A stretch of DNA of 64,000 nucleotides from Propylenella binzhouense (GTDB lineage Bacteria > Pseudomonadota > Alphaproteobacteria > Rhizobiales > Afifellaceae): the NCBI RefSeq assembly GCF_009866965.1, contig NZ_SPKJ01000002.1:89471-153470 (forward strand). Reading direction: 5' to 3'. This document shows positions 7,789 through 27,383 of this stretch, piece after piece (the first letter of the stretch is position 1; each line of letters begins with the position of its first letter). The position numbers and the translations under genes were made by a program. The notes below the pieces were generated by a model. That model worked only from the letters and a program-made list of their open reading frames with translations. It had not been told where the DNA came from and searched no databases.

Positions 7789-7836
7789 CGCCCGCCTCGC
7801 TCCGCCGCCCGCCTCGCCCCAACGACCGGACCGCCT

Positions 7837-11530: not shown

Positions 11531-11558
11531 TTGACACGCCTAGGGCAACATGCATACT
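11531..11558 (+). promoter_or_regulatory. Candidate sigma-70-type promoter of the catabolic operon
   Basis: TTGACA (11531-11536) matches the -35 consensus exactly. After 16 bases, CATACT (11553-11558) matches the -10 consensus at four of six positions. Transcription would begin near 11565 and run through the ATG at 11632. Confidence 0.5.
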
Positions 11559-11564
11559 CCAATG

Positions 11565-11584
11565 TAAGGAACGAGCGTTTCGTA
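11565..11584 (+). promoter_or_regulatory. Candidate operator over the transcription start
   Basis: Three short elements overlap here: TAAGGAAC (11565-11572), also present at 21259-21266; AACG-AG-CGTT (11570-11579), a palindrome matching AACG-AT-CGTT at 21362-21371; and GTTTCGTA (11577-11584), also at 19121-19128 before the IclR gene. The position just downstream of the promoter fits a repressor site. The IclR protein encoded at 19172 is the natural candidate (inference). Confidence 0.4.
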
Positions 11585-11631: not shown

Positions 11632-13125
11632 ATGTCGAGCTTCGCTCCGGACACCATCGACTGCCCGTCGGGCTCGTTCATCGCCGGCCGCTTCGTGCGG
11701 GGCGGCGGCGACGAGCTTCCGGTCGAGCGCCCGTCGGACGGAGCCGTCCTCGGCATCTTCCGCGAGGCGAGCGAGGCCGACGTCGACGAGGCCGTCCGCT
11801 GCGCCGCCGAGACGCGCCGGGCCGAGCGCTGGGGCTCCGGCGATCCGCGCCGGCGCGGGGCGGTGCTGCGGCGCTGGGCCGAGCTGGTCGAGCGCGACCG
11901 CGAATATCTGGCGCGGCTCGAGGCGCTGTGCTCCAGCCGGCCGGTCACGGAGGCGCGGCAGCGCGACATCCCCGTCGTCGCGGAGCTGCTGCGCTATTAC
12001 GGCGAATGCGCCGACAAGTGCCCCGGCGAGGTCCTCGCCACGTCGCATGACGCTCTCAACATGGTCGAGCACGAGGCCTGGGGCGTGGTCCTGGCGATCT
12101 CGCCGTGGAACGTGCCCGCGCTCCTCGCCGCCGCCAAGGTCGCGCCCGCGCTCGCCGCGGGCAACGCGGTCATCCTGAAGCCGAGCGAACTCACGCCGCT
12201 CTCGATGCTGCGGATCGCGGAACTCGGGGTGGAGGCCGGCCTGCCGCGGGGCCTGTTCAGCGTTCTCGTCGGGCGCGGCCCGACCACCGGCCGCGCCGCC
12301 GTGCGCCATCCGCTCGTCGGCTATGTCAGCTTCACCGGATCGACGGCGACCGGCGCGGCGATCATGTCGGACGCCGCCCATCACGGCATGAAGCCGGTCT
12401 CGATGGAGCTCGGCGGCAAGAGCCCGCAGGTCGTGTTCGCCGACGCGCCCGACCTCGAGAAGGTGGCCGACCTGGTGGCGCTCGGCGTCTCGCGCAATGC
12501 CGGCCAGATCTGCTTCGCCGGCACGCGCCTCATCGTCGAGGAGGCCGTCGCCGAGCGCTTCGTCGGGAAGGTGGTGGAGCGCCTGCGCGGCGTGCGGCCG
12601 GGCCCGACCTGGCGGGAGGAGACCGACCTGCCGCCGATCATCTCCAAGCGGCAGGCCGACCGGATCGAGGCGCTGGTCGAGAGCGGCCGCGCCGGCGGGG
12701 CGAAGGTGGTTGCGGGCGGCGAGCGCTTCGTCCTCGACGGCGGCCAGTACTTCGCGCCGACGGTGATGGCCGAGCTCGGCTCCGACAACCCGGCGCTGCG
12801 CGAGGAGATCTTCGGACCGGTGCTCGGCGTGCAGACCTTCCGCGGGTTCGACGAGGCGATGCGGCTCGCCGACCACCCGGTCTACGGGCTTACCGCCAGC
12901 CTCTACACCCGCGACATCGACAAGGCGATCCACGGCGCGCGCGCAATCGAGGCCGGCACGATCTGGATCAACGGCTACGGCCGCGGCGCCGACCTCGGCA
13001 GCCCGTTCGGCGGGTTCAAGCAATCGGGCTTCGGCAAGGACTTCGGGATTGACGGATTCAAGAAGTACCGGCGGAGCAAGAGCATCAACGTCTTCTTGAC
13101 CGAGGCGGAGAGGGAAGCGGCCTAA
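11632..13125 (+). CDS. Aldehyde dehydrogenase (NAD(P)-dependent)
   Basis: A 497-residue member of the aldehyde dehydrogenase superfamily. It shows the WGVVLAISPWNVPALLA cofactor segment, SFTGSTATGAAI, the general-base glutamate in MELGGKSPQVV, the catalytic cysteine in NAGQICFAGTR, and EEIFGPVLGV near the C-terminus. Such enzymes oxidise an aldehyde or semialdehyde to the acid. The ATG at 11632 follows GGGAGGA and gives a standard length. It is the first gene of the operon and its TAA overlaps the ATG of the Rieske gene by one base. With an ACMSD-like amidohydrolase downstream, a muconate-semialdehyde-type substrate is possible but not shown. Confidence 0.9.
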   Translation: MSSFAPDTIDCPSGSFIAGRFVRGGGDELPVERPSDGAVLGIFREASEADVDEAVRCAAETRRAERWGSGDPRRRGAVLRRWAELVERDREYLARLEALCSSRPVTEARQRDIPVVAELLRYYGECADKCPGEVLATSHDALNMVEHEAWGVVLAISPWNVPALLAAAKVAPALAAGNAVILKPSELTPLSMLRIAELGVEAGLPRGLFSVLVGRGPTTGRAAVRHPLVGYVSFTGSTATGAAIMSDAAHHGMKPVSMELGGKSPQVVFADAPDLEKVADLVALGVSRNAGQICFAGTRLIVEEAVAERFVGKVVERLRGVRPGPTWREETDLPPIISKRQADRIEALVESGRAGGAKVVAGGERFVLDGGQYFAPTVMAELGSDNPALREEIFGPVLGVQTFRGFDEAMRLADHPVYGLTASLYTRDIDKAIHGARAIEAGTIWINGYGRGADLGSPFGGFKQSGFGKDFGIDGFKKYRRSKSINVFLTEAEREAA

Positions 13126-13487
13126 TGCGGTACTACGTGGCGGAAGAGAGCGAGATCGGGGACGGCGAGCGCCGCGTCGTTTCCTGCGACGGCAAGGAGA
13201 TCGGCGTCTTCAGGGTGAAGGGCCGGCTCTTCGCCTGGCACAATCGCTGCGTCCACCAGAACGGCCCGGTCTGCCAGGGACGGATCTACAACCGCGTCGT
13301 GGAGCCGGTCGCCGAGGACGGCACCACCCGCTTCCAGGAATACGACGCTGAAACCTTCCACCTGGTCTGCCCCTGGCACGGCTACGAATACGACATCGAA
13401 ACCGGGCAGCATCCGGGGAACCCGAGGGTGCGGCTGCGGGCGGCGAAGCTCGAGATCGAGGACGGCAGCATCTATGTCTCTGCCTGA
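13125..13487 (+). CDS. Rieske [2Fe-2S] protein, ferredoxin-like, with a long inter-motif insertion
   Basis: A 120-residue one-domain Rieske protein. The cluster ligands are visible as C-V-H (NRCVHQNGP, about residue 42) and C-P-W-H (VCPWHGYEYDIETG, about residue 85). Thirty-seven residues separate the two motifs, against the 15-17 common in dioxygenase-type ferredoxins, so this is a distinct subgroup. It could pass electrons to an oxygenase or act as a small partner protein. It overlaps the aldehyde dehydrogenase by one base and the next gene by 14 bases, so co-translation is likely. No terminal oxygenase large subunit is encoded in the window. Confidence 0.85.
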   Translation: MRYYVAEESEIGDGERRVVSCDGKEIGVFRVKGRLFAWHNRCVHQNGPVCQGRIYNRVVEPVAEDGTTRFQEYDAETFHLVCPWHGYEYDIETGQHPGNPRVRLRAAKLEIEDGSIYVSA

Positions 13488-13824
13488 CCGAAGGCCCGGC
13501 CACGGGGCGAACGACGAATATGCGTGGATCGACCCGACCGCCGAACGCCTGTTCGAGGCGGCCAAGGATCTCCTCGGGCGCGGCGAGGCGGACCGCGTCT
13601 CGGAGACCGCGATCCGCCAGCTGCTGACGGCGGCGATCCGCCTCTACGTCGCCCGCACCGACGGCGAGGAGCGGACCTTCCGCCCGCTGATGGGACAATA
13701 CGACGACGAGGTGACCGCGACCGAGATCGTTTCGGCCTGCTCGGAACTGCTGCGCGCGCTGCGCCTCAGCCCGATGGAGCTCTCGATCTGGTTCCGCCAG
13801 CGCCCCGACGACCAGGGATACTGA
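13474..13824 (+). CDS. Protein of unknown function, 116 residues, in the Rieske/amidohydrolase operon
   Basis: I do not recognise this protein. It has no membrane span and no signal peptide. It is acidic and mostly helical in character, with segments such as ERLFEAAKDLLGRGE, ETAIRQLLTAAIRLYVAR and ACSELLRALRLSPMELSIWF. A conserved-looking tail WFRQRPDDQGY ends it. It overlaps the Rieske gene by 14 bases and lies two bases before the amidohydrolase, so it is firmly part of the operon. A small subunit or assembly factor for one of these neighbours is a reasonable guess, but nothing in the sequence proves it. Confidence 0.75.
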   Translation: MSLPDRRPGHGANDEYAWIDPTAERLFEAAKDLLGRGEADRVSETAIRQLLTAAIRLYVARTDGEERTFRPLMGQYDDEVTATEIVSACSELLRALRLSPMELSIWFRQRPDDQGY

Positions 13825-13826
13825 CC

Positions 13827-15059
13827 ATGGATGCCATCGCCACCAAACCGGCCGAGCTTCTGCCGACGCAGGAAGCCTCCGTCCACACGAACACGCGCGA
13901 GCTGCTGGACCACGCCAACCGCGACGCGAAGCGGCGGGGCCTCGAGGACTGGCTGATCGTCGACATCGACGCGCATCACGTCGAATCGGTGTCGTGGAAC
14001 CAGATCGTCCACTACATCGAGGACCCGGTGCAGCGGGCGGCCGCGCTCGACTATCACAAGAACCGGGTCGGCGCGCCGCCATACGGGCTCTCGGGCGATC
14101 TCGGCCTGCGCTACCAGAGCGTCGGCGGCCGCATCCCGCACCAGGACGACCAGAAGGAGGTCGTGGAGGACAAGTCTGTCCATCGTGACGTGACGCTCAC
14201 GCGGCGCGCCATGGAAGGCCTCGCCGTCGACTACATGGTCGTCTTTCCGACGCCGATGCTGTTCCTTGGGCTGCATCCGCAGACCCGGATGGAGGTGATC
14301 CTCGCGCGCGCCTATACGCGCTGGACGATCGACAACCTCCTGCGCGCCGATCCGCGCATCAAGACCTTCCTCTATCTGCCCTTCAACGAGCCGGACGAAT
14401 GCGTCCGCATGATCGAGGACTTCGCCGACGAGCCCGGCATCATCGGGCTGACGGTGCCGTCGGTGCGGCACAAGCCGGTGCACCACAATGCCTACATGAA
14501 GGTCTACGCGATGGCCGAGGAGCGCGGCCTGCCGGTGGCGTTCCATGCCGGCTACCACTGGCAGGACCAGTCGCTCGCCACCGTCAACCAGTTCCTCGGG
14601 ATGCATGCGCTCGGCTTCGTCTGGTGCAACATGATCCACATGACGAACTGGGTGCTGAACGGCATTCCGGAGCGCTTTCCCGGGCTGAAGAGCCTGTGGG
14701 TGGAAAGCGGGCTCGCCTGGGTGCCGTTCCTGATGCAGCGGCTCGACGACCAGTTCCTGATGCGCCAGTCCGAGGCGCCGCTCCTGAAGCGCCTGCCGAG
14801 CGAGTACATGTCGGAGCACTGCTTCTACACCTCGCAGCCGATGGAGAAGACCCATCCGCGCGCGCTGCAGTCGACCTTCGAGATGATCAAGGCCGAGACG
14901 CAGCTGCTCTACTCGTCCGACTGGCCGCATTTCGACTTCGACACGCCGGGGACGATCGCCGACATCCCCTTCATCGACGAACAGGCGAAGCGGAACATCC
15001 TCGGCCTCAACGCGGCACGCCTGTTCAACCTGCCGACGGAGCCGGTGAAGAGGCTCTGA
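13827..15059 (+). CDS. Amidohydrolase-2 (ACMSD-like) metal-dependent hydrolase/decarboxylase
   Basis: A 410-residue protein of the amidohydrolase family that includes 2-amino-3-carboxymuconate-6-semialdehyde decarboxylase (ACMSD). After a 40-residue lead it has the first metal-site strand LIVDIDAHHVES, then VAFHAGYHWQDQ, MIHMTNWVLNG, and the aspartate loop LLYSSDWPHFDFDTP. The C-terminus NILGLNAARLFNL is the usual end of the family. Members decarboxylate or hydrolyse carboxylated aromatic or muconate compounds. The ATG at 13827 follows the previous stop by two bases. It is longer than the amidohydrolase at 33898 and only distantly similar to it. Confidence 0.85.
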   Translation: MDAIATKPAELLPTQEASVHTNTRELLDHANRDAKRRGLEDWLIVDIDAHHVESVSWNQIVHYIEDPVQRAAALDYHKNRVGAPPYGLSGDLGLRYQSVGGRIPHQDDQKEVVEDKSVHRDVTLTRRAMEGLAVDYMVVFPTPMLFLGLHPQTRMEVILARAYTRWTIDNLLRADPRIKTFLYLPFNEPDECVRMIEDFADEPGIIGLTVPSVRHKPVHHNAYMKVYAMAEERGLPVAFHAGYHWQDQSLATVNQFLGMHALGFVWCNMIHMTNWVLNGIPERFPGLKSLWVESGLAWVPFLMQRLDDQFLMRQSEAPLLKRLPSEYMSEHCFYTSQPMEKTHPRALQSTFEMIKAETQLLYSSDWPHFDFDTPGTIADIPFIDEQAKRNILGLNAARLFNLPTEPVKRL

Positions 15060-15175
15060 GACCCGGCGCCGGCGGCGCGGGACGCGCCCCGCTGCGCCCG
15101 GTTGAGCCAGCCCGATCCCCGAGGCGGGTCGGCGCTGAGGACGGACGTTCGCCTCGTCACAACAGGGAGGAAGAG

Positions 15176-16300
15176 ATGGGACGGATGCAGATCTGTGCGG
15201 CGCTCGCCGCGGCCGGAATCGCCGGGGCGCTTGTCGCCGGCCCGGCGGCGGCGCGGGAGCTGATCTACAGCAGCTACGCGGGGCCGAAGCACGCCGTGAA
15301 CGAGCTGGCGCTGCCGCCCTGGTTCAAGGCGGTCGCGGAGAAGACCGGCGGCGAGGTCGAATGGAAGCTGGTGACGGGCGGCCAGCTCCTCAGCGGGCGC
15401 GACACCGTGGCCGGGGTGGGCGAGGGGATCGCCGATGCCGGGCTGGTCGTGCCGACCTACAACCCGGCCGCGCTGCCGGCGATCGCCACCATCTATTCGA
15501 CGCTGGTGTTCGGCGACGACGTGGTCGCGACGGGCGGCGCGGCGCTCGAGACGCTGCTGCTCGACTGCCCCGCCTGCAAGTCCGAGCTGAAGAAGAACAA
15601 CGCGGTGGCGATCGCCGGCTACGGCGCCACGCCGTTCAAGCTGATGTGCCGCAAGCCGGTCGCCACGCTCGCCGACCTCAAGGGCAAGAAGGTCCGCGTC
15701 TCGGGCTCTGGCGTGCCGATGATGGAGATGGCGGGGGCGACGCCGGTCGCCATGAACCCGGCCGAGGGCACCCCGGCCATGGAGCGCGGCACCATCGACT
15801 GCGTGCTCGGCTCGATCAACTGGATGGATTCCTACGGCTACCGGGACGTCGTCACCGCCATCCTCGACGTGCCGATGGGCATGATGGGTCCGGTGATGAC
15901 CGGCTACATCAACCGCGACACCTGGGACGGCCTCAGCCGTGAGCAGAAGCAGGCGCTCCTCGACGGGGCGCCCGAGCTCGACGCGCGCGGCACGCTCGAC
16001 GCCTATTACGGCGTCGACCAGGAGGTGCTCGAGTCGCTGAAGGGCAGCGACGTGAAGATGTATCCGGGCGGCAAGGATTTCGACGCGATGCTCGAGACGT
16101 TCCGGGCCAAGCTGCGGGAGATCACAATCACCGACATGAAGAAGCTCGGCCTTGCCGATCCGGGCGCGGTGATCGACGCCTACGAGAAGAACCTCGAGAA
16201 GTGGCGCAAGCTCTCCCCCGAGATCGGCCTCGACGTCGACAAGTTCACCGCCGCCCTGAAGCGGGAGATCTACGACAAGATCGACGTCGACGACCTCTGA
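15176..16300 (+). CDS. TRAP transporter solute-binding protein (DctP-like)
   Basis: A 374-residue periplasmic binding protein of the TRAP family. A cleavable signal peptide is visible (hydrophobic run ICAALAAAGIAGALVAG, cut near AAARE). The mature protein has LPPWFKAVAEKTGGEVEWKL, LSGRDTVAGVGEGIADAG, and LADLKGKKVRVSGSG with the ligand-contact region that usually holds an arginine binding a carboxylate. The start follows AGGGAGGAAG. A perfect hairpin after the gene separates it from the permease genes. TRAP systems use the sodium or proton gradient to import organic acids, so the operon's substrate is probably a carboxylate. Confidence 0.92.
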   Translation: MGRMQICAALAAAGIAGALVAGPAAARELIYSSYAGPKHAVNELALPPWFKAVAEKTGGEVEWKLVTGGQLLSGRDTVAGVGEGIADAGLVVPTYNPAALPAIATIYSTLVFGDDVVATGGAALETLLLDCPACKSELKKNNAVAIAGYGATPFKLMCRKPVATLADLKGKKVRVSGSGVPMMEMAGATPVAMNPAEGTPAMERGTIDCVLGSINWMDSYGYRDVVTAILDVPMGMMGPVMTGYINRDTWDGLSREQKQALLDGAPELDARGTLDAYYGVDQEVLESLKGSDVKMYPGGKDFDAMLETFRAKLREITITDMKKLGLADPGAVIDAYEKNLEKWRKLSPEIGLDVDKFTAALKREIYDKIDVDDL

Positions 16301-16309
16301 GCGTCGTCG

Positions 16310-16335
16310 GCCGGGCGGCCCGGACGCCGCCCGGC
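16310..16335 (+). promoter_or_regulatory. Intercistronic hairpin after the TRAP binding-protein gene
   Basis: GCCGGGCGGC-CCGGAC-GCCGCCCGGC is a perfect 10-base stem with a 6-base loop, ten bases after the stop and before the small permease gene. It has no T-run. It sits at the same relative place as the hairpin at 7762-7788 in the Liv operon. Confidence 0.55.
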
Positions 16336-16374
16336 ACCCTGCCTGCCTGACCCCTGCCGGAAATTGAGGGCCAC

Positions 16375-16920
16375 GTGACCGCGATAGGAAAGATCCTGGA
16401 CCGGCTGGTCGACGTCTTGATGTGGATCGGCTGCCTCGCCTCGGCGCTGATGATGGTGCACATCGCCGTCGACGTGTTCTGCCGAAACGTCCTGAACGCG
16501 CCGCTCGACGGCACGCTCGAGATCGTCTCGTCCTACTACATGGTGACGATCGCCTTCTTTCCGCTCGCCTATGTCTCGCGCTCGGGCGGCCAGATCTTGG
16601 TGGACCTGTTCACGTCGCAGATGCCGCGGCGGCCGCGGGCCCGGCTCGACACCGTCGTCTACGTCGCCACGGCCATCTATCTCGCGCTCTTCCTCTGGCG
16701 GTCCTACGTGACCGCCCTCGCCAAGACCCGGCAGGGCGAGGTCTGGGAATCGGCCGGCGGCTTCCTCAGCGTCTGGCCGAGCCGTTGGATCGTGGTCGTC
16801 GGCATGGCCGGCATGCTGCTCGTCACGCTGCGCCTCGCCATCGCGGGCCTCGCACGCGGCGCCGACGGCCTCGAGGCCGCGCTGCGCAAGCCGGACGACG
16901 TGTTCGAGGGGCAGGAGTGA
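16375..16920 (+). CDS. TRAP transporter small permease (DctQ-like)
   Basis: A 181-residue membrane protein with four hydrophobic spans (LVDVLMWIGCLASALMMVHI, YYMVTIAFFPLAYV, VVYVATAIYLALFLW, WIVVVGMAGMLLVTLRL), which is the fold of DctQ subunits. It binds the large permease and is needed for transport. The start is GTG at 16375. The stop overlaps the start of the large permease (ATGA-type overlap at 16918-16922), so the two are coupled in translation. DctQ proteins vary greatly in sequence; the call rests on length, topology and position between dctP- and dctM-like genes. Confidence 0.88.
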   Translation: MTAIGKILDRLVDVLMWIGCLASALMMVHIAVDVFCRNVLNAPLDGTLEIVSSYYMVTIAFFPLAYVSRSGGQILVDLFTSQMPRRPRARLDTVVYVATAIYLALFLWRSYVTALAKTRQGEVWESAGGFLSVWPSRWIVVVGMAGMLLVTLRLAIAGLARGADGLEAALRKPDDVFEGQE

Positions 16921-18230
16921 TGAGTTCGGTCGAAGTCGGCTTCTGGAGCCTCGGCGCGGTCGTCATCCTCATCGCGCTCCGCGTCCCGATCGGCGTCGCC
17001 CTCGGCGGCGTCGGGCTGCTCGGAATCGCCTATATCAGAGACTTCAGGATCGCCTACGCGGTTCTCGGCAGCACCCCTTTCGAGTTCGCCGCCCACCACA
17101 CCCTCTCGGCGATCCCGATGTTCCTCCTGATGGGCGCCATTGCCCACGGGTCGGGCATCAGCCAGTCGCTGTTCCGCGCGGCGCGGCTCTGGCTCGGCGG
17201 CATTCCGGGCGGCCTCGCCGTCGCGACGAACTATGCCTGCGCGGGATTCGCCGCCGCCTCGGGATCGAGCATCGCGACCGCGGCGGCGATGGCCAAAATA
17301 GCGGTCCCGGAGATGCTGAAGGCCGGATACGACCGCGGCCTCGCCACCGGCGTGGTGGCGAGCGCCGGCACGCTGGGCTCGATGATCCCGCCGAGCATCA
17401 TGTTCGTGCTGTTCGGCGTCTTCGCCGAGGTCTCCATCGTCAAGCTGCTCATCGCCGGCATCATTCCGGGCCTGCTCACCGCCTTCATCTACATGGTGAT
17501 GATCATGGTGCGCAGCACGCTCAATCCGGCGCTCGCGCCCCGGCTCGATCCGGAGGAGCAGCGCCGCCTGCGTCCGGAGCGGATCCGGGCGCTCCTCGAG
17601 ATCTGGCCGCTGCTGGCGCTGATGCTCGGCATCATCGGCGGGCTCTATTCCGGCGTCGTCACGCCGACCGAAGCCGGCGCCGCCGGCGCCGCCCTGGCGC
17701 TCCTCATCGCGCTCCTGCAGCGCCGGCTCTCGGTGGCGCGGTTCGTCTCAAGCCTGATCGAGGCCACCGCCTCGACCGCGCGCATCTTCTTCGTCGCCGC
17801 CGCCGCCGCGCTCTTCGCCAAGTTCCTGGCCATGACGGGCATGCCGTTCTATTTCGGCTCCCTTCTCTCCGAGCTCGGTTCGCCTTTGCTCCTGATCGTC
17901 GCGACCTCGGTGATCTTCACCATCCTCGGCATGTTCCTCGATCCGATCGGCCTGATGCTGCTCACGCTGCCGATCCTCCTGCCGATGTTCGAGGCGCAGG
18001 GCGTGGACCTCATCTGGTTCGGAGTCCTGACCGTCAAGTTCCTCGAGATCGGGCTGCTCACGCCGCCGGTCGGCTTCAACGTCTACGTCATCAAGGCGAC
18101 CGTGGGCGATGCGGTGCCGCTCGCCGAAATCTTCCGCGGCGTCGCCTGGTTCCTGCTCTGCGAGTTCATCGTGGTGGTCCTGCTGGTGCTCTTCCCGCAG
18201 ATCGCGCTGTTCCTGCCGAACACGATGTGA
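16920..18230 (+). CDS. TRAP transporter large permease (DctM-like)
   Basis: A 436-residue multi-span permease, the standard DctM length. It has VGFWSLGAVVILIALRVPIG at the start, GIPGGLAVATNYACAGFAAASGSS, GSMIPPSIMFVLFG (the family signature), YSGVVTPTEAGAAGA, and IGLLTPPVGFNVYVIK near the end. It forms the transport channel with the small permease and receives ligand from the binding protein at 15176. The ATG overlaps the small-permease stop. The three genes form a complete tripartite TRAP system embedded in the catabolic operon, which suggests that the substrate of the operon is imported by it. Confidence 0.93.
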   Translation: MSSVEVGFWSLGAVVILIALRVPIGVALGGVGLLGIAYIRDFRIAYAVLGSTPFEFAAHHTLSAIPMFLLMGAIAHGSGISQSLFRAARLWLGGIPGGLAVATNYACAGFAAASGSSIATAAAMAKIAVPEMLKAGYDRGLATGVVASAGTLGSMIPPSIMFVLFGVFAEVSIVKLLIAGIIPGLLTAFIYMVMIMVRSTLNPALAPRLDPEEQRRLRPERIRALLEIWPLLALMLGIIGGLYSGVVTPTEAGAAGAALALLIALLQRRLSVARFVSSLIEATASTARIFFVAAAAALFAKFLAMTGMPFYFGSLLSELGSPLLLIVATSVIFTILGMFLDPIGLMLLTLPILLPMFEAQGVDLIWFGVLTVKFLEIGLLTPPVGFNVYVIKATVGDAVPLAEIFRGVAWFLLCEFIVVVLLVLFPQIALFLPNTM

Positions 18231-18243
18231 GCGGCGCGCGCTG

Positions 18244-19065
18244 ATGGAAGAGACCGATCGCGTCTACGTGCTGGACTGCGGCGACGTCCGGATCCATGCG
18301 ATCCGCGATGCCGTGCTGCCGATCCCCGTCGGGAACTTCCCCGGCGCGGACGCGGAGCGCGCAGCCGCTTTGCTCGGCCAACTCTCCGAGAGCGTGCCCG
18401 TCACCGTGAACTGCTTCCTGCTCGAGGCGGCGGACGGTTCCACCTGCCTCGTCGACACCGGGGTGGGCACCGCCATCCCGGGCGTGGAGGGTGCGCTGGC
18501 GCGCCGGCTCGCGGCCGGCTTCGAGGCGCCCGGCCGCATCTTCCTCAGCCATTTCCATATCGACCATATCGGCGGGCTGGTCACGCTGGCGGGGCTGGCG
18601 CCTCCGGAGACGGAGATCCTGGTTCCCGAAGCGGAGCTCGCCTACTGGACGCGGCCCGGCTTCCCGCTCGGCGCGCCCGTCGGCCAGGGGCGCTCGCGGC
18701 CGGTGGTGGCGGCGCTCTTGGAGCGCTTCGGCGACCGGCTGCGCCCGGTCGCTCCCGATGTCGAGCCGCTGCCGGGCGTGCGGCAGGTTCCGTTGCCGGG
18801 CCATACGCCGGGGCATACCGGCATCCGGGTGGGCGAGACCCTGATCTGGGGCGACATCGTCCACGCGCCGGCGCTGCAATGCGCCGTGCCGGACTGGGGC
18901 TATGTCGCGGACGTCGAGCCGCAGGCGGCCGCCGAGCAGCGCCGGAACATCTTCGCGGAAACGGCGGAGCGGGAGATCGTCGTCGGGGGCATGCACCTGC
19001 CCTTTCCTGGCTTCGGACGCCTGCGCCGGTCGAAGGAGGGATATCGGTTCGAACCGCTTTCCTAG
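18244..19065 (+). CDS. Metallo-beta-lactamase-fold hydrolase
   Basis: A 273-residue MBL-fold protein. The zinc motif HxHxDH is present (FLSHFHIDHIGG, about residue 105). The next metal ligands are in LPGHTPGHTG and an aspartate in LIWGDIVHAP, with a final histidine in VGGMHLPFPGFG. Relatives include lactonases, quinolinases and thioesterases. It starts 13 bases after the TRAP permease and is likely the last gene of the operon. A lactone or cyclic amide formed in the pathway would be a reasonable substrate (inference). The ATG at 18244 gives a normal N-terminus for the family. Confidence 0.85.
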   Translation: MEETDRVYVLDCGDVRIHAIRDAVLPIPVGNFPGADAERAAALLGQLSESVPVTVNCFLLEAADGSTCLVDTGVGTAIPGVEGALARRLAAGFEAPGRIFLSHFHIDHIGGLVTLAGLAPPETEILVPEAELAYWTRPGFPLGAPVGQGRSRPVVAALLERFGDRLRPVAPDVEPLPGVRQVPLPGHTPGHTGIRVGETLIWGDIVHAPALQCAVPDWGYVADVEPQAAAEQRRNIFAETAEREIVVGGMHLPFPGFGRLRRSKEGYRFEPLS

Positions 19066-19120
19066 AGACAGTCCCGAACGAGACCGCTCCGTCATCTGGC
19101 GGGTTCCGCATCGCCTTGAA

Positions 19121-19131
19121 GTTTCGTAAAC
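19121..19131 (+). promoter_or_regulatory. Candidate operator before the IclR gene
   Basis: GTTT-CGT-AAAC is a perfect 4+3+4 palindrome 40 bases before the IclR start. Its left eight bases GTTTCGTA are identical to 11577-11584 at the operon promoter. Autoregulation by the IclR protein is inferred. Confidence 0.35.
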
Positions 19132-19171
19132 AATCGGCACGGCGGGAGCGCCGCGAAAGGCCGGGAAAAGC

Positions 19172-19963
19172 ATGCCGCGCGAGCGAAATCCCGTCAGCAA
19201 GACCCTGCGCTGCCTCGAACTGATCCTCGAGGCCGAAAATTCCGAGATCGGCGTCCGCGAGCTGGCGGAATCGATGCACGTGTCCCCGAGCAGCGCGCAC
19301 CGGATCCTGAACGGCCTCGTCGACGAAGGCTACGTGACCCGCGATCCGGTCACGCAGCGCTACCGGATCGGCGTGGGCTTCCTGCGCCTCGCCTATCTCT
19401 CGGCCGACCGCATCCCGATCCGCAAGCTCGCCATGGCGGCGATGCAGGAACTGGCCGAGGAGCACAATGAGACGGTTCTCCTCGGCCTCTACGATTCGAC
19501 GCGGCGGGAGATGGTGTTCGTCGCCTCGATCGAGTCCACGCATCCGCTGCGCTATGCCGTGCGCCTCAACCAGTGGTCGCCGATCCATACCGGCGCGACC
19601 GGTCTCGCCATTCTCGCGTTCCTGCCGGAGCAGGAATGCGAGGCGATCCTTTCCGGGCCGCTCGAGAGGCTGACGCCGGAGACGATCACCGATCCGAACA
19701 GGCTGAGATCCGTGCTGGAGCAGGTCCGGCGCCAGGGCTATGCGCTCACGCACGGGCAGCGGATCACCGGAGCGGTCGGAATCGCGGCGCCGATCTTCAG
19801 CGGCACGGGTGCCGTGATCGGCGACGTCAGCGTGACGATCCCCGAACAGCGCTTCGTCGAGGACCTGCAGGAGAAGCTGATCGCGGCCGTGCGCGCGACC
19901 GCGGACAAGATCACGCGCCTCACCGGCGGGGCGTCGGCCGAGCGGAGCCGCGCGGCGTCCTGA
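19172..19963 (+). CDS. IclR-family transcriptional regulator of the catabolic region
   Basis: A 263-residue, full-length IclR regulator. The N-terminal winged helix is visible (NPVSKTLRCLELILEAENSE, then VRELAESMHVSPSSAHRIL and YVTRDPVTQRYRIG). The effector domain follows, with MQELAEEHNETVLLG, WSPIHTGATGLAILAFLP, where a ligand pocket usually lies, and GAVGIAAPIFSGTGAVIGDVSVTIP. Members act as repressors or activators of catabolic operons and respond to the pathway substrate. It follows the operon on the same strand after about 105 bases and has its own candidate operator, and it faces the NicC-like gene. It is the obvious candidate to control 11632-19065 and possibly 20041-24213. Confidence 0.92.
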   Translation: MPRERNPVSKTLRCLELILEAENSEIGVRELAESMHVSPSSAHRILNGLVDEGYVTRDPVTQRYRIGVGFLRLAYLSADRIPIRKLAMAAMQELAEEHNETVLLGLYDSTRREMVFVASIESTHPLRYAVRLNQWSPIHTGATGLAILAFLPEQECEAILSGPLERLTPETITDPNRLRSVLEQVRRQGYALTHGQRITGAVGIAAPIFSGTGAVIGDVSVTIPEQRFVEDLQEKLIAAVRATADKITRLTGGASAERSRAAS

Positions 19964-20040
19964 GCCGTTCGCTGCCTGTGGCCGGACCCGATTTCGGCCG
20001 AGCGCGCCCCAAGCGATAGCCAATCGCGCCTCGCGACGGC

Positions 20041-21195
20041 TCAGCCGGCGGCGGCGTTGAGCGCGCGGTCGCCGGAGGCGATCGGGGCGTTCAGGACGTC
20101 ATAGCCGTAGCACCAGTCGGGGTCTGTCCGCTCGCGCATCCAGGTATTGGCGTGCGACCCGGCCTGGACGCGGGCAGCCCGCGCTTGCCGCGTCGCCTCG
20201 AAGCGGGCGAGCGCGCCGGCGACATCGTCCGGCGTCTCCGCGATGCAGCGCGCCAGCATGACGCCGTCCTCCATGGCCATGGCGGCACCCTGGGCCATGT
20301 AGGGCGTCATCGGATGGGCCGCGTCGCCGAGGATCACCATCCGGCCGTCCTGCCAGTGCGGGAGCGGCTTGCGGTCGACGATCGCCCACTTGTTGACCTC
20401 GGGGCAGGCGCGGAGCACGTCCCGCACCTGCGGGTGGAAGGACGCGAAGGCGCTGCGCAGCACGTCCACGTCGCCCTTCGCCGACCAGGATTCCAGCGTC
20501 CAGTCCGGCTCCGGCAGCGAGGTGACGAAGTAGACCTCGTCCCGCGCGGCGGTGGTGAGATAGATCACGATGTGCCGGTCCTCGCCCCACCATTTGGTGC
20601 ATTCGTCGATCTCCATCGACAGGCGTTCGACCGGAAAGGTGGCGCGGTAGGCCACGCGGCCGGTGTAATCGGGCTTTTCCGGCCCGAGCAGCGTCTCGCG
20701 CACGCGCGAGTGCACGCCGTCGGCGCCGACGACGATATCGGCGCTGGTCCGGGTGCCGTCCTGAAACGTGATCTCCACGCCGTCCGAACGGGTCTCGATC
20801 CCGACCACGCGCCTGTCGAGGCTGATCGCCTCGTCCGGCACGATCGAGACGAGGGCCTCGTGCAGGTCGCCGCGATGCATCAGGAGGTAGTCGGCTCCGT
20901 ATCTCGCCGAGGCGGCGTCGCCGAGCGGAAGTTCGAACTGCATCGCGCCGGTGTCCCATGTCCGGTTCTTCCAGGAACCGGGGCGGAAGGCGGTGGCCTT
21001 GACCCGCTCCTCCAGGCCGAGCGAACGCAGGACGCGCATGGCGTTCGGGCTCATCTGGATGCCGGCGCCGAGACGCAGGAAATGCGGCGCCTGCTCGAAG
21101 ATATGGCTGTCTATGCCGCGCTGCCGAAGCGCGGAATAAGCCACGAGGCCTCCCATTCCCGCTCCGATGATCGCGATCCGCGGCGCATGGCCCAT
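20041..21195 (-). CDS. FAD-dependent monooxygenase, 6-hydroxynicotinate 3-monooxygenase (NicC)-like
   Basis: A 384-residue class A flavoprotein hydroxylase. It has the GxGxxG fold at the start (IAIIGAGMGGLVAYSALRQ), the DG motif (IVVGADGVHSRVRE) and the GD motif (MVILGDAAHPMTPYMAQG). From memory of the family, several stretches closely resemble Pseudomonas NicC: CTKWWGEDRHIVIYLTT, DEVYFVTSLPEP, HANTWMRERTDPDW and CYGYDVL near the C-terminus, and the length is almost the same. NicC converts 6-hydroxynicotinate to 2,5-dihydroxypyridine with loss of CO2. Other N-heterocyclic or aromatic carboxylates are possible. The start has GGGAGGAAGAG upstream. It is divergent from the DUF35/thiolase operon across a palindrome-rich region. 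Confidence 0.85.
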   Translation of the reverse strand: MGHAPRIAIIGAGMGGLVAYSALRQRGIDSHIFEQAPHFLRLGAGIQMSPNAMRVLRSLGLEERVKATAFRPGSWKNRTWDTGAMQFELPLGDAASARYGADYLLMHRGDLHEALVSIVPDEAISLDRRVVGIETRSDGVEITFQDGTRTSADIVVGADGVHSRVRETLLGPEKPDYTGRVAYRATFPVERLSMEIDECTKWWGEDRHIVIYLTTAARDEVYFVTSLPEPDWTLESWSAKGDVDVLRSAFASFHPQVRDVLRACPEVNKWAIVDRKPLPHWQDGRMVILGDAAHPMTPYMAQGAAMAMEDGVMLARCIAETPDDVAGALARFEATRQARAARVQAGSHANTWMRERTDPDWCYGYDVLNAPIASGDRALNAAAG

Positions 21196-21249
21196 CTTCT
21201 CTTCCTCCCTTCGGCCGATTGCGGGCAGGCGCTCATCCGCGCCAATGCC

Positions 21250-21294
21250 GTTCCATTATAAGGAACATATGATCTCTTATGAGGTTCACCTCAT
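21250..21294 (-). promoter_or_regulatory. Promoter and two palindromes upstream of the NicC-like gene
   Basis: Read on the minus strand, TATAAT (21255-21260) is a perfect -10 box. It lies inside GTTCC-ATTATAA-GGAAC (21250-21266), a 5+7+5 palindrome resembling IclR-type sites. No good -35 box is present; in its place sits the perfect palindrome ATGAGGT-TC-ACCTCAT (21279-21294), centred about 38 bases before the expected start. That arrangement fits an activator that replaces the -35 contact, plus a second site over the -10. Confidence 0.5.
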
Positions 21295-21360
21295 TTGGAC
21301 CGGGAAGTCAAGCTGCGCGACCCGGGTTGACGTCCGCCGCAGAGTTGCCTAACGATAAGA

Positions 21361-21372
21361 GAACGATCGTTC
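21361..21372 (+). promoter_or_regulatory. Perfect palindrome before the DUF35 gene
   Basis: GAACGATCGTTC is a perfect 12-base palindrome ending four bases before the first possible ATG (21377). Its core AACG-NN-CGTT matches 11570-11579 at the other operon promoter. A TTGACG hexamer at 21327-21332 may be the -35 box, in which case the palindrome covers the transcription start. Confidence 0.45.
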
Positions 21373-21376
21373 GTTT

Positions 21377-21811
21377 ATGCAGAACAGGTGGATGATGCAG
21401 AAGCTCAGTGTCGTGACCGCGGAGACCCTGTCGGGGCTGGAGCGGCTGCATGTCGGCCGGGGCCCCGACGGCGCGCCGGTGCTGCGCGGCGCACGCTGCG
21501 CCGATTGCGGGCTGGTCTACTTTCCGCCGATCGGCATCTGCCCGAGCTGCGCTTCGACGGACCAGGCGGCCGAGGACATGCCGCGATCGGGCACGCTCTA
21601 TTCGGAGACCACCGTCCACGCCGCCCCGCCGCCCTGGTTCACCCCCTATTCCGTCGGCTATGTCGACCTGCCCAACGGCGCCCGCGTCTTCGGACACCTG
21701 AGGGGGAGCCCCCGGATCGGCGACCGCGTGACCCTCACGACCGCCGTCCTCGGCCGCGACGAGGACGGGCGGCCGGTGGAGACCTTCGCTTTCGAGAAGA
21801 AGGAAGGCTGA
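21377..21811 (+). CDS. DUF35-type zinc-ribbon/OB-fold protein, thiolase partner
   Basis: A protein of up to 144 residues. An N-terminal zinc ribbon has C-x2-C and a second C-x2-C (RCADCGLVYFPPIGICPSC), then an OB-fold (GTLYSETTVHAAPPPWF, YSVGYVDLPNGARVFGHL, IGDRVTLTTAVLG). DUF35 proteins form complexes with thiolase-like enzymes, for example in archaeal HMG-CoA synthesis and in steroid side-chain aldolases, where they channel acyl-CoA. The thiolase gene follows immediately (ATG two bases after the stop). The start could instead be one of the two ATGs at 21392 and 21395, which are closer to an AGGTGG sequence. Confidence 0.85.
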   Translation: MQNRWMMQKLSVVTAETLSGLERLHVGRGPDGAPVLRGARCADCGLVYFPPIGICPSCASTDQAAEDMPRSGTLYSETTVHAAPPPWFTPYSVGYVDLPNGARVFGHLRGSPRIGDRVTLTTAVLGRDEDGRPVETFAFEKKEG

Positions 21812-21812
21812 G

Positions 21813-22952
21813 ATGGTCCGGGCCGCTATCGCCGGGGTCGGAATGGTCCCGTTCGCCAAGATGCGCGAGAAGTCGCTCGCCGATATCGGCTGGCCGGCCG
21901 TCAAGGCGGCCATCGCCGATGCCGGGATCGAGCCGAAGGCCCTGCAGGCCTGCTATTGCGGCACCAGCCTCGGCGGGATGATGGCCGGGCAGCGCATTCT
22001 CGGCCGGATGGGGCTGACCGGCATCCCGGTCACGAATATCGAGAATGCCTGCTCCTCGAGCTCTTCGGCCCTCGCCCAGGCCGTGCTCGCCGTGCGCGCG
22101 GGCAAGTACGAGGCGGTGCTGGTCGTCGGCGCCGAGAAGCTCACCAAGTTCGGCGGCGGCACCCTGCCGCTCGAGAAGGAGGACTGGGAGGTCTCGCAAG
22201 GCCTCGTGATGCCGGCCCTCTATGCCATGCGCGCCAAGCGCTACATGCACGAATACGGCCTGACCGAGCTGCAGCTCGCCAAGGTGTCGGTGAAGAACCG
22301 GAAGAACGGGGCGCTCAATCCGGATGCCCAGTACCGCCAGGCCGTGACGGTCGAGGACGTGCTCGGCAGCCGCATGATCGCGGAGCCGTTCACGCTGCTG
22401 CAGTGCTGCCCGACCGGCGACGGGGCGGCGGCGCTCGTCGTCACCTCAGAAAAGCTTGCGCGGAAGCTGCGGAGCGATCCCGTCTTCGTCGCCGCCTCCG
22501 AGCTGACCTCCGGTCGCTTCACTGCCGGGTTCCGCGACATGACGACGCCGGAGATCACCGTCCGGGGCGCCGCGGAGGCCTACGAGGAGGCGGGGCTCGG
22601 GCCCGAGGACATCGACGTGGCCGAGGTGCACGACGCGTTCTCGATCGCGGAGCTCATCTATTACGACGCCTTCGGCTTCTCGAAGAAGGGCGAGGCGGGC
22701 GCGCTGATCGACAGCGGGGCGACCGAGATCGGCGGGCGGGTCGCCGTCAATCCGTCGGGCGGCCTTATCTCGAAGGGGCATCCGATCGGCGCGACCGGGG
22801 CGGCGCAGGTGGTCGAGATCACCCGCCAGCTCCGCGGCGAATGCGGGCCGCGCCAGGTGCCGGGCGCGAAGGTCGGGCTGGCGCACGCCACCGGCGGCGG
22901 CATTTCCGGCTTCGACCATGGCGCCTGCGCCATCCACATCCTGACACGCTAG
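21813..22952 (+). CDS. Thiolase-family protein (acyl-CoA acetyltransferase or aldolase)
   Basis: A 379-residue thiolase-fold protein of the SCP2/lipid-transfer type. The nucleophilic cysteine is present (NIENACSSSSSALAQAV, about residue 75). The histidine motif is GGLISKGHPIGATGAAQ. At the C-terminus, where classical thiolases have a second cysteine (C-x-G), this protein has GLAHATGGGISGF, without it. That pattern, with a DUF35 partner, is also seen in acyl-CoA retro-aldolases, so either carbon-carbon cleavage of a thioester or an acyl transfer is possible. It lies between the DUF35 gene and the CoA-transferase gene in one operon with tight spacing. Confidence 0.85.
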   Translation: MVRAAIAGVGMVPFAKMREKSLADIGWPAVKAAIADAGIEPKALQACYCGTSLGGMMAGQRILGRMGLTGIPVTNIENACSSSSSALAQAVLAVRAGKYEAVLVVGAEKLTKFGGGTLPLEKEDWEVSQGLVMPALYAMRAKRYMHEYGLTELQLAKVSVKNRKNGALNPDAQYRQAVTVEDVLGSRMIAEPFTLLQCCPTGDGAAALVVTSEKLARKLRSDPVFVAASELTSGRFTAGFRDMTTPEITVRGAAEAYEEAGLGPEDIDVAEVHDAFSIAELIYYDAFGFSKKGEAGALIDSGATEIGGRVAVNPSGGLISKGHPIGATGAAQVVEITRQLRGECGPRQVPGAKVGLAHATGGGISGFDHGACAIHILTR

Positions 22953-22974
22953 CGCCAGACGGGACGTGGAGCCG

Positions 22975-24213
22975 ATGCCAAACGACGCCGCCGCGGCCAT
23001 GCGCCCGCTCGAAGGCGTGACCGTTCTCGATCTCACCCAGTTCCTGTCGGGCCCGTACTGCACGCAGATCCTGGGCGATCTCGGGGCCGAGATCATCAAG
23101 CTGGAGAGCCCCGAGGGAGACCTCGCGCGGCACATCCCGCCTTATTTCCGCGAGGGGTCGAGCCTCTATTTCCACGCGATCAACCGCAACAAGAGCAGCA
23201 TCGTCGTGAACCTGAAGAGCGAGCGGGGCCTCGCCATCGCGCGCGACCTGATCGCGACCTGCGACATCGTGGTGGAGAACTTCCGCCCCGGCGTGCTCGA
23301 CCGGCTCGGCCTCTCCGCGGCGGAGCTGTGCAGAGAGCATCCGCGGCTGATCTGGGCCTCGATCTCGGGCTTCGGGCAGGACGGGCCGTACCGCAACAAG
23401 CCCGCCTACGACATGATCGTGCAGGCGCTTTCCGGCGGCATGAGCCTCACCGGCGAGCCGGGCGGCACTGCGGTCCGCTCCGGCATCCCGATCGGGGACC
23501 TCTCCGCCGGCATGTATGCGGCGATCGCCGCGCTCTCGGCGATGGTGCGGCGGGGCATCACCGGGAGGGGCGCCATCTGCGACATCTCGATGCTCGACGT
23601 GCAGGCGGCGATGCTCTGCTACCAGGCGGCCTATTTCCTCCATTCCGGCGTGGTGCCGGGACGGCAGGGCACGGCGCACGATTCGATCCCGACCTATCGC
23701 GGCTTCACCTGCGCGGAAGGGACCGAGCTCGTGATCACCGCCAACACCGAGCGCATGTGGCGCGGCCTCTGCCGCGTCCTCGGGCTCGACCACCTGGCCG
23801 ACGATCCCCGCTTCGTGACGAACCGCGAGCGGCACCAGAACCGCGCCGCGCTGGCGGAGCTCCTCGAGGCCGCGATGCGCCGCCGCCGCGCCGACGAATG
23901 GGTGCCGCTGCTCGAGGCCGAGGGCATTCCGGTCGGCGTCGTGAACACGCTCGACAAGGTGATGGCGGATCCGCAGCTCCGGCACCGCGCGATGATCGAG
24001 GAGATGCCGGCGCGGGCGGGCGGGCCGCTGCGCGTCATGGCGAACCCGGTGAAGTTCGTCGGCGAGCCGGCCACGGCGTCGATCCCGCCGCCCGTCCTCG
24101 GCAGCGCGACGGCCGCGGTGCTCGCGCGGCATCTCGGGCTGGCGCCGGCCGAGATCGCGCGGCTCGACCGCGAGGGCGTCATCGCGACGGCCGGCACTCC
24201 CGCCGACGCGTGA
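22975..24213 (+). CDS. Family III CoA-transferase (CaiB/BaiF type)
   Basis: A 412-residue family III CoA-transferase. It begins MRPLEGVTVLDLTQFLSGPYC after a short lead, followed by LGDLGAEIIKLE, NRNKSSIVVNLKSE and GFGQDGPYRNKPAYDMIVQALSG. The aspartate in AYDM is the catalytic residue that carries the acyl group in this family. These enzymes move CoA between carboxylic acids without ATP. The ATG at 22975 is preferred to a GTG at 22966 because GGGACGTGGAG lies just before it. It is 22 bases after the thiolase and completes a three-gene operon, so it probably activates the acid cleaved by the thiolase-like enzyme. Confidence 0.88.
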   Translation: MPNDAAAAMRPLEGVTVLDLTQFLSGPYCTQILGDLGAEIIKLESPEGDLARHIPPYFREGSSLYFHAINRNKSSIVVNLKSERGLAIARDLIATCDIVVENFRPGVLDRLGLSAAELCREHPRLIWASISGFGQDGPYRNKPAYDMIVQALSGGMSLTGEPGGTAVRSGIPIGDLSAGMYAAIAALSAMVRRGITGRGAICDISMLDVQAAMLCYQAAYFLHSGVVPGRQGTAHDSIPTYRGFTCAEGTELVITANTERMWRGLCRVLGLDHLADDPRFVTNRERHQNRAALAELLEAAMRRRRADEWVPLLEAEGIPVGVVNTLDKVMADPQLRHRAMIEEMPARAGGPLRVMANPVKFVGEPATASIPPPVLGSATAAVLARHLGLAPAEIARLDREGVIATAGTPADA

Positions 24214-24220: not shown

Positions 24221-24283
24221 GCTAGGGCCCGTTTGCTAGGGCCCGCTCGCTAGGGCCCGCTCGCTAGGGCCCGCTCGCTAGGG
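24221..24283. repeat. 14-base tandem repeat, about 4.5 copies
   Basis: Units begin at 24221 (GCTAGGGCCCGTTT), 24235, 24249 and 24263 (each GCTAGGGCCCGCTC), and a partial unit starts at 24277. The last three full copies are identical. The array lies between two convergent genes, and the TAG stop of the thioredoxin-reductase-like gene is within the last unit. Each unit contains the tetranucleotide CTAG, which is scarce in many bacterial genomes, and the palindrome GGGCCC. Confidence 0.9.
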
Positions 24284-25177
24284 AAAGTCTTCCGCGAGCA
24301 GCTCGGAATTGATCGCGAACGCCGCCATCGCGCCCTCGCTCGCCGCGACGATGGCGAGCTGGACATGGCGCGAGGAATCGCCGGCGACATAGAGGCCGGG
24401 CACGTTGGTCGTCTCGTAGGTGCCGGTGTCGACCGCGCCGCGGCGCGTGAACCGGCAGCCGAGGCGCTCGGCGAGATCCGAGGCCTGGCGGTCCGGCATC
24501 GCGAAGAAGAGCGCCTTCCGCTCCAGGACCCGTCCGTCGGCGAGCCGGATCGCCCGGAGGCATTCGTCGCCCTCGAGCGCGGCGACGGGCGTCCCTTCGA
24601 TCGCGATGCCGTGGCGCCGGAGCCGGCCGGCGAGCTCGGGACCGATCGCGGCGGACTCCCCGGAGAAGACCACGATGTCGTCGCTCCAGCCGCGCAGCTC
24701 GATCGCCAGGCGCGCGCCGTGCGCCTCCGGTCCGTAGACGGCGAGCGGCGCGCCCCTGTTCTCCCAGCCGTCGCAATAGGGGCAATGATAGACGCCCCTG
24801 CCGTAGAACCGTTCGGCGCCCTCGATGGGCGGCAGGTCGTCGCGGATTCCGGTCGCAAGGAGCAGCTTGCGGCACCCGACCGTCTCGCCGCCGGCGAGCG
24901 TGACGGCGTAGCGCGCCCCCTCTTTGCGCGCATCCTCCACCCGGACCTCGCGCAGCTCGACATTCGGATAGCGCCGAAGCTGGTCGCGCCCGGTCTGGCG
25001 GAGCTCGCTTGGATGGGTGCAGTCGCGGGTGAGGAAGCCGTGCAGCTCGTGCGAGGCCGCGTTCCGGCCCTTCCCTTCGTCGCACAGAAGGACCCGCCGC
25101 AGCGCGCGGCCGAGGATCAGGGCCGCGCTCAGCCCGGCCGGTCCGCCGCCCACGATCAGGACGTCATAATCGCTCAC
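24278..25177 (-). CDS. Thioredoxin reductase-like NAD(P)/FAD oxidoreductase
   Basis: A 299-residue two-dinucleotide-domain flavoprotein. The FAD fold opens the protein (YDVLIVGGGPAGLSAALILGR). The redox pair is C-P-Y-C (GVYHCPYCDGWENRG, about residue 135). The second FAD segment is VPGLYVAGDSS near the C-terminus. It reduces a small disulfide partner or acts as a stand-alone oxidase; no thioredoxin gene lies beside it. The GTG at 25177 follows GGGAGA and fits the family start; the frame is open far upstream but that part is a low-complexity Arg/Ser stretch. Short tandem repeats flank the gene on both sides. Confidence 0.87.
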   Translation of the reverse strand: MSDYDVLIVGGGPAGLSAALILGRALRRVLLCDEGKGRNAASHELHGFLTRDCTHPSELRQTGRDQLRRYPNVELREVRVEDARKEGARYAVTLAGGETVGCRKLLLATGIRDDLPPIEGAERFYGRGVYHCPYCDGWENRGAPLAVYGPEAHGARLAIELRGWSDDIVVFSGESAAIGPELAGRLRRHGIAIEGTPVAALEGDECLRAIRLADGRVLERKALFFAMPDRQASDLAERLGCRFTRRGAVDTGTYETTNVPGLYVAGDSSRHVQLAIVAASEGAMAAFAINSELLAEDFP

Positions 25178-27151: not shown

Positions 27152-27176
27152 GCCCGCTTCCTCACCTTCATTTCTT

Positions 27177-27192
27177 CTGATCGGGCGATCAG
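27177..27192. promoter_or_regulatory. TetR-like palindromic operator
   Basis: CTGATCG-GG-CGATCAG is a perfect 7+2+7 palindrome just upstream of the dehydrogenase gene. A second, shorter site with the same half, ATCAG-AAAAG-CTGAT, lies at 27282-27296 on the side of the CocE-type gene. No TetR-like gene is in the window next to it. Confidence 0.4.
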
Positions 27193-27383
27193 TAGCATTG
27201 CGGCCGTCCCTGTCCAATTCCGCCGCGCGCGCCGGTTCCGGCATGGCCGAGCGTGGGGGCTGCGGATCCGCCGGCGCGATCATCAGAAAAGCTGATATGC
27301 GCCAGCACGGAATATGGTTTGCGGAGCAGGGGCGCGAATCCTACTCTCGCTGCAACCAACAAAGCCGGCTCTGGGAGGCACAG

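Follow-up and report, generated by a model that had tools for sequence, protein, structure and literature searches.

The stretch of DNA analysed here (the window) comprises 64,000 nucleotides of contig NZ_SPKJ01000002.1 of Propylenella binzhouense, and contains at positions 11632-24213 a catabolic island of about 12.6 kb. Our subject is a group of three consecutive genes in this island, coding for a small Rieske protein, a protein of 116 residues (u116) and a member of the amidohydrolase family that we assign to the amidohydrolase-related dinuclear oxygenases (AROs). Sequence comparisons make it reasonably probable that the three products form an O2-dependent C-H monooxygenase, with u116 as its likely coupling subunit, which would open the breakdown of a likely aromatic acid, presumably imported by the tripartite ATP-independent periplasmic (TRAP) transporter encoded next to it. 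All 13 genes listed in the original prediction for this DNA lie where it had placed them and match the corresponding Pfam families, u116 being a protein without family:

11632-13125, plus strand: aldehyde dehydrogenase (ALDH), PF00171, E 6.6e-143
13125-13487, plus strand: Rieske [2Fe-2S] protein, likely ferredoxin of the oxygenase, PF00355
13474-13824, plus strand: u116, 116 residues, likely third oxygenase component from its co-occurrence, no Pfam or NCBIfam match
13827-15059, plus strand: ARO-type oxygenase component, PF04909 (Amidohydro_2), six predicted metal ligands
15176-16300, plus strand: TRAP substrate-binding protein DctP, PF03480, NF037995 above cut-off
16375-16920, plus strand: TRAP small membrane subunit DctQ, PF04290
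16920-18230, plus strand: TRAP large membrane subunit DctM, PF06808 (scanned from 16917)
18244-19065, plus strand: metallo-beta-lactamase-fold (MBL) hydrolase, PF00753 (Lactamase_B)
19172-19963, plus strand: IclR-family regulator, PF01614 and PF09339, predicted to control both halves of the island
20041-21195, minus strand: NicC-like flavin monooxygenase, PF01494 (FAD_binding_3), PDB 8uiq and 5eow
21377-21811, plus strand: DUF35/ChsH2-type OB-fold partner of the thiolase, PF01796 and PF12172
21813-22952, plus strand: thiolase, PF22691 and PF00108
22966-24213, plus strand: class III CoA-transferase (CoAT), PF02515 (CoA_transf_3), E 1.5e-125

Nine of these genes, from ALDH through IclR, occupy 8.3 kb of the plus strand (11632-19963); the monooxygenase gene lies on the minus strand, divergent from the DUF35, thiolase and CoA-transferase genes on the plus strand. 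The ALDH and Rieske genes share one base, the Rieske and u116 genes overlap by 14 bp, and the ATG of the amidohydrolase-family gene (13827) starts 2 bp after the u116 stop. Since the four genes overlap or nearly touch, they are probably expressed as a single transcript.

The amidohydrolase-family protein had been described as ACMSD-like, that is, as a decarboxylase, an identity that we reject on the basis of its rankings against the PDB, its Foldseek ranks and its six conserved ligands for a dinuclear site. When the PDB was searched with phmmer, the five best distinct matches were 8sm7 (5.8e-40), SfbO (8sm6, 3.3e-34), AibH2 (6m1w_B, 2.2e-29), 8sm9 (1.6e-27) and 8sm8 (6.8e-27), followed by AibH1 and PtmU3 (1e-12), 5-carboxyvanillate decarboxylase (6e-8) and ACMSD (5.7e-5 and weaker). 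These searches read the protein from position 13824, which adds one residue before the Met (A1 numbering). The same five AROs lead when a profile of 36 family sequences is used. The structure was predicted with a mean local confidence (pLDDT) of 83, and in the Foldseek search with this model the first 21 ranks are filled by AROs, AibH1H2 and PtmU3, decarboxylases following from rank 22. The protein thus combines the PF04909 amidohydrolase fold and nearest characterised relatives that are AROs, not mononuclear enzymes, with a small Rieske gene within three genes (13125-13487) and six ligands equivalent to those of AibH2, which are D25, H27, H211, E265, D337 and H340 (PMC7782822; PMC10401708). 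Counted from the ATG at 13827, the predicted ligands are D48, H50, H240, E293, D365 and H368 (D49, H51, H241, E294, D366 and H369 in A1 numbering). Alignment to AibH2 gave the final four of these (H, E, D, H); the first two (DxH) were placed by the motif itself and by short N-terminal alignments to 8sm7, 8sm9 and SfbO, none of which is significant taken singly. All six are intact in 112 of 115 aligned family sequences, a set that contains the window sequence and some duplicates of one locus, and the remaining three are truncated by contig ends. At the first motif, a comparison amidohydrolase in the window (33898-34968) has H-S-H, whereas the ARO has D-A-H; HxH at this position marks the mononuclear members of the family, and the ARO has DxH there. 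Sequence and predicted structure are strong evidence that 13827-15059 encodes an ARO-type oxygenase. As a separate observation, its residues 84-110 (A1 numbering; window 14073-14153) are largely conserved, and could be a partner-binding segment or an active-site lid.

All four ligands of the Rieske protein (CxH and CxxH) are conserved throughout an alignment of 77 sequences. The spacing between the two pairs is 37 residues, a value shared by 73 of the 77, and narrower spacings of 15-18 are typical of ordinary Rieske ferredoxins. Because the neighbouring amidohydrolase is of the ARO type, the Rieske protein likely serves it as ferredoxin. This pairing has precedents, as PMC10811679, which defines the AROs, describes finding new ones via their Rieske neighbours, and PMC10401708 reports a Rieske gene adjoining 90% of 555 AibH2-like genes.

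The third protein of the group, u116, has 455 relatives in the database at E <= 0.001, and no PDB sequence matches it below E 0.3. Its predicted structure consists of four helices (pLDDT 83), and a fold search of the PDB gave no usable match. Because no column of an 86-sequence alignment has Cys or His in at least 30% of the sequences, u116 is unlikely to bind a metal or cluster of its own. The window protein has no DNA-binding Pfam match and a set of 47 relatives gave single weak matches of helix-turn-helix (HTH) type, with E > 0.05; Pfam matches to CENP-P (5 of the 47 relatives) and CENP-H (2 of 47), at best E 4e-4, were judged to be chance. No gene fusions were seen among the four longer homologues inspected.

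What connects u116 to the oxygenase is above all its distribution. Among 385 alphaproteobacterial genomes it is present in 17 (P. binzhouense included), at 25 places, and the ARO subfamily of the window is present in the identical 17, with scores of 498 bits or more against no more than 174 for the next matches in the class. Since scoring was limited to 4 ARO or 11 u116 candidates in each genome, both counts are lower bounds. Every one of the 25 copies of u116 has a Rieske gene no farther than about 1.5 kb away (in L104 and L105 it is cut at the end of the locus, and is whole in L131 and L129, respectively), and for 24 of them an ARO gene lies within 1.5 kb, that of the last copy being 5.8 kb away on the same contig. 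The gene order varies, being ARO-Rieske-u116 in four loci (L099, L101, L102, L103) and Rieske-ARO-u116 in two (L104, L105). Weaker ARO-like proteins occur at a further 17 places, nine of which were read (L135-L143): four have a Rieske neighbour (L135, L136, L138, L139) and none of the nine has u116. The protein was found in none of 60 relatives from the same family and order and in 3 of 398 genomes of a sample of the phylum (that of P. binzhouense and two of the same order), where four further copies all stand with Rieske and ARO genes. Of the plasmid records, 31 contain the ARO and 14 contain u116, all of them among the 31. The association of u116 with this branch of AROs is therefore strong, and co-occurrence with the subfamily and proximity to the Rieske and ARO genes make it likely that u116 is a third component of the oxygenase. 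The texts of PMC10811679 and PMC10401708, as far as consulted, make no mention of a small third component, and literature searches listed no other paper on such a protein. Distance correlations between ARO and u116 (0.87) and between ARO and Rieske protein (0.83) were dropped as evidence, because joint inheritance predicts such values. In one locus (L086, 3817-10001, on the same contig as L170), u116 and ARO are about 6 kb apart, and the intervening open reading frames resemble, by eye, CRISPR type III (RAMP) genes with a repeat array. This split arrangement and that of the class genome G071 were counted as one event, since by length (37,742 bases) they are the same contig.

The three genes also mostly stay together in other genomes. 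In 80 loci picked by ARO similarity, 41 of them at least 19 kb long, u116 and the Rieske gene were found in 76, contiguous as Rieske-u116-ARO in 75; the other four contigs begin at or inside the ARO gene, and the Rieske gene of L033 is incomplete because the contig ends there. Relatives of ALDH lie around 10 of these loci and of IclR around 19. The conservation of gene order in related genomes, which had been proposed as a check on the whole island, thus holds mainly for Rieske-u116-ARO, and because conservation around this cassette mostly does not extend to the remaining island genes, we discarded the idea of one fixed catabolic pathway inherited as a unit.

The surroundings of the cassette elsewhere are diverse. 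Genes for molybdenum hydroxylases lie near 20 of the 80 loci, as judged from sequence clusters and verified at family level for two proteins of L088. This locus (7801-9767; G000:C24) is a second, divergent Rieske-u116-ARO cassette of P. binzhouense itself, with an ARO about 51% identical and molybdenum-hydroxylase genes; downstream of it, by eye or cluster, are ACMSD-like amidohydrolase, CoxG-like and NIPSNAP-like genes, and loci of Afipia and Mesorhizobium have similar sets close to their cassettes. Plasmid pAA01 of Aminobacter has the arrangement ALDH-ARO-u116-Rieske-aromatic ring hydroxylase, and the four plasmid neighbourhoods inspected show varied contexts with no named substrate. In L171, L172 and L173 two ARO copies stand close together beside a Rieske gene, as in AibH1/AibH2, and could code for heteromeric oxygenases. 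The other half of the island was followed through its CoA-transferase, which has a match at E <= 1e-110 in five of 372 class genomes, that of P. binzhouense included. Thiolase and DUF35 genes are also present around two of these (L175, L176), in L176 with a molybdenum-hydroxylase-like gene between, by eye. Genome G402, which is 92% complete, contains IclR-DUF35-thiolase-CoAT and no ARO match.

Control of the island was approached through sequence elements upstream of its two halves:

11531-11558, plus strand: sigma-70-like promoter match TTGACA-16-CATACT upstream of ALDH, the sole match in 13.3 kb
11557-11572, plus strand: operator-like imperfect palindrome CTCCAATGTAAGGAAC upstream of ALDH, predicted IclR site 1
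21250-21266, plus strand: perfect palindrome GTTCC-N7-GGAAC between the monooxygenase and DUF35 genes, predicted IclR site 2

The 15-mer TTCCATTATAAGGAA, at 21251-21265, has an imperfect copy with three mismatches at 11557-11571. With up to three mismatches it gives two matches in the 64 kb vs 0.08 expected (none of 100 shuffles had two), and six sites in the 4.7-Mb genome, two of them being the pair in the window. Two other loci give independent support. In G402 (L175) the palindrome TTCCGTAATACGGAA stands between an IclR gene 53% identical to that of the window and DUF35-thiolase-CoAT. L026 has TTCCGTTAAACGGAA in the gap from a NicX-like gene to Rieske-u116-ARO, and an IclR gene with 48% identity is about 1 kb away. 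The exact GTTCC-N7-GGAAC was found in 6 of 176 loci (L148, which is the window itself, L026, L175, L054, L077 and L011), standing just before the Rieske gene in L054 and near an IclR gene in L077. Because similar rare palindromes are found at both promoters and recur near IclR relatives in two genomes, it is likely that the predicted IclR protein controls both halves via a shared operator. Two further candidates were set aside. The sigma-70-like promoter is weak and within chance (0.9 matches expected in 13.3 kb), and a second near-palindrome shared by the same two promoters, GAACGATCGTTC (11569-11580, with two mismatches, and 21361-21372), was not counted because 4.5 matches with up to two mismatches are expected by chance in 64 kb, where two were found.

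As for the substrate, the hydroxylase resembles NicC, its best PDB matches being both 6-hydroxynicotinate 3-monooxygenases (8uiq, E 2.1e-112; 5eow, E 1.1e-111); its best NCBIfam model is 3-hydroxybenzoate 6-monooxygenase, with a score below cut-off. No ring-cleaving dioxygenase had been visible at first inspection, and a Pfam scan of the 13 island proteins likewise found none; none of the 13 genes codes for a NicX-type ring-opening dioxygenase. The only NicX-like match in the genome is on contig C167 and is 63% identical to the NicX-like protein of L026, whose C-terminal part in turn matches NicX with E 1e-7. In L026 a NicC-like enzyme, this NicX-like dioxygenase and the cassette share one locus. 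The monooxygenase and the context of L026 favour a pyridine-type or other aromatic acid, and such an acid is our best guess for the substrate; PMC10811679 states of its own candidates that natural substrates are not inferable from the genome.

In the mechanism that we propose, an unlinked NAD(P)H reductase would supply electrons to the Rieske protein, which would hand them on to a diiron or Mn/Fe site, with u116 binding the oxygenase and gating or coupling electron transfer. The alcohol or aldehyde produced by hydroxylation or dealkylation would be oxidised by ALDH, and the NicC-like monooxygenase would then hydroxylate the ring, with decarboxylation if it is NicC-like in action. Ring opening by an enzyme encoded elsewhere might be followed by chain cleavage through the CoA-transferase and the DUF35-thiolase pair, with IclR likely controlling both halves through the shared operator. 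AROs have been recognised only recently, and u116, which is present in exactly the genomes that hold one of their branches (17 of 385), is a concrete partner candidate that may explain how electron delivery is coupled to C-H oxidation in these enzymes. A shared operator would link the oxygenase to the downstream pathway and so narrow the search for the substrate. Of the original interpretation, a catabolic island with an importer and a regulator of its own is supported, as is a hydroxylase resembling NicC; the ACMSD-type decarboxylase and the fixed island are not.

Several of our observations weigh against this proposal and have to be considered together with its alternatives. A mononuclear-metal decarboxylase or hydrolase of the ACMSD or gamma-resorcylate decarboxylase type, next to a Rieske protein serving another oxygenase elsewhere, would agree with membership in the common Pfam family PF04909 and with the decarboxylases lower in the match lists; the profile search places 5-carboxyvanillate decarboxylase (4e-17) over PtmU3 (4e-14), and TM-scores differ modestly (0.65-0.72 for AROs vs 0.55-0.63 for decarboxylases among the 50 matches listed). 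However, AROs come first in both sequence and fold searches, all six ligands of the dinuclear site are kept, among them a DxH motif in place of the HxH of mononuclear members, and a Rieske gene is close to u116 at all 25 places, and we regard this alternative as very improbable. It is also possible, if tentatively so, that u116 stays outside the working enzyme and regulates the oxygenase or assists its folding or the insertion of its metal. A small all-helical model without known fold would suit such a role, as would the AROs that lack it: among 35 copies of the subfamily, u116 is within 1.5 kb in 27, at 5.8 kb in one, and not found on the contig within 10 kb in seven. Every one of these seven is in a genome having u116 elsewhere, and the flanks of the four that were read (L125-L128) contain neither u116 nor a Rieske gene. 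By tblastn, 17 of the 31 ARO-bearing plasmids gave no u116; one of those 17, a Phaeobacter plasmid checked by profile, has it (E 1e-8). Against this role, u116 is translationally packed between the Rieske and ARO genes, it has no Pfam DNA-binding match and the HTH-type matches of its relatives are weak, and the association persists while gene order changes. Our main proposal has further weak points: residues 84-110 of the ARO are modelled with pLDDT < 50, the named published AROs are described without u116, which need not be essential, and a Pfam scan found no AibF-like ferredoxin:NAD+ reductase among the 13 island proteins, the nearest pyridine-nucleotide flavoprotein found being at 24278-25171 on the minus strand. 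The more ambitious view of u116 makes it an obligate third component, with an effector or coupling role like that of MmoB in methane monooxygenase, in a previously unrecognised ARO branch spread through soil and marine Alphaproteobacteria and attacking aromatic or N-heteroaromatic acids; this is a conjecture that we consider possible but less likely than not.

The monooxygenase component proposed here could also have been joined by accident to its neighbours, the oxygenase operon and the half with the flavin monooxygenase, DUF35, thiolase and CoA-transferase being two unrelated pathways. The halves are not linked in the 80 related loci, around which relatives of DctP, DctQ and DUF35 were found in none, of MBL hydrolase in 1, thiolase in 2, CoA-transferase in 3, DctM in 4 and the monooxygenase in 8, and in G402 IclR and the second half stand in a genome with no match to the ARO. 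The operator itself calls for caution, as the second site (11557) is imperfect, and genome-wide a reversed control pattern gives 13 sites vs 6 for the operator pattern. The odds in the window are somewhat flattering, because the pattern was read from one site and the second spotted by eye, and the looser pattern GTTCC-N7-GGAAC says nothing by itself, since it has 5 sites genome-wide vs 4 for its reversed control. Yet a similar rare palindrome stands at both promoters, each half has an IclR relative (48-53% identity) next to it in another genome, and L026 joins IclR, a NicC-like flavin monooxygenase (53% identical) and the cassette, so that an accidental neighbourhood seems to us rather unlikely.

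Around these genes, the ALDH scores under the curated cut-off of every NCBIfam model among the matches listed (25 of 42), and the MBL hydrolase is a distant relative of AidB lactonase (NF047979, 160 bits, cut-off 360). Directly upstream of the island (window 6513-11243) is a branched-chain-type ATP-binding cassette (ABC) importer whose second permease is fused to two ATPase domains (844 aa). On the other side, a minus-strand gene of the 3-hydroxyisobutyrate-dehydrogenase type (26261-27283; PF03446, PF14833) recalls the Aib pathway, which employs such an enzyme after the ARO step, and positions 27447-34968 contain an S15-peptidase/CocE-type hydrolase, a second branched-chain-type ABC importer and the PF04909 amidohydrolase with HxH, possibly a second catabolic cluster.

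Among known systems, the downstream part of the island resembles BbsAB, the benzoylsuccinyl-CoA thiolase, in its pair of DUF35 and thiolase, although both proteins fall far under the cut-offs of the BbsAB equivalog models (78 of 250 and 327 of 750 bits). NicC (PDB 5EOW, 8UIQ) is the closest solved relative of the monooxygenase, in an island without a NicX-like gene. A riboflavin pathway with a P450 and a Rieske dioxygenase (PMC12746152) is related by keywords alone, as far as the part consulted goes. PtmU3 (PDB 6OMP), the diiron hydroxylase of platensimycin, is also an amidohydrolase-fold monooxygenase, but a biosynthetic one and a weaker match (E 1e-12). SfbO and the other characterised AROs (PMC10811679; PDB 8SM6-8SM9, three of them titled 'TruffO') are the best sequence and fold matches and share with the island the Rieske neighbour and the predicted dinuclear site, whereas the subfamily of the window is clearly apart, its members scoring 498 bits or more and the next matches in the class no more than 174, and has in addition u116, of which the main text of PMC10811679 says nothing. 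The closest parallel in gene content is AibH1H2GF, the 2-aminoisobutyrate monooxygenase of Rhodococcus wratislaviensis as described in the text of PMC7782822 and PMC10401708, where, as in the island, an ARO with six ligands, a Rieske ferredoxin, a transporter and an aldehyde dehydrogenase are clustered. The second, non-catalytic ARO subunit of AibH1 type is absent from the island, which has one PF04909 protein; AibH1H2GF works with two ARO subunits and with an FMN reductase, AibF, encoded alongside, and the island has one ARO and, in addition, u116.

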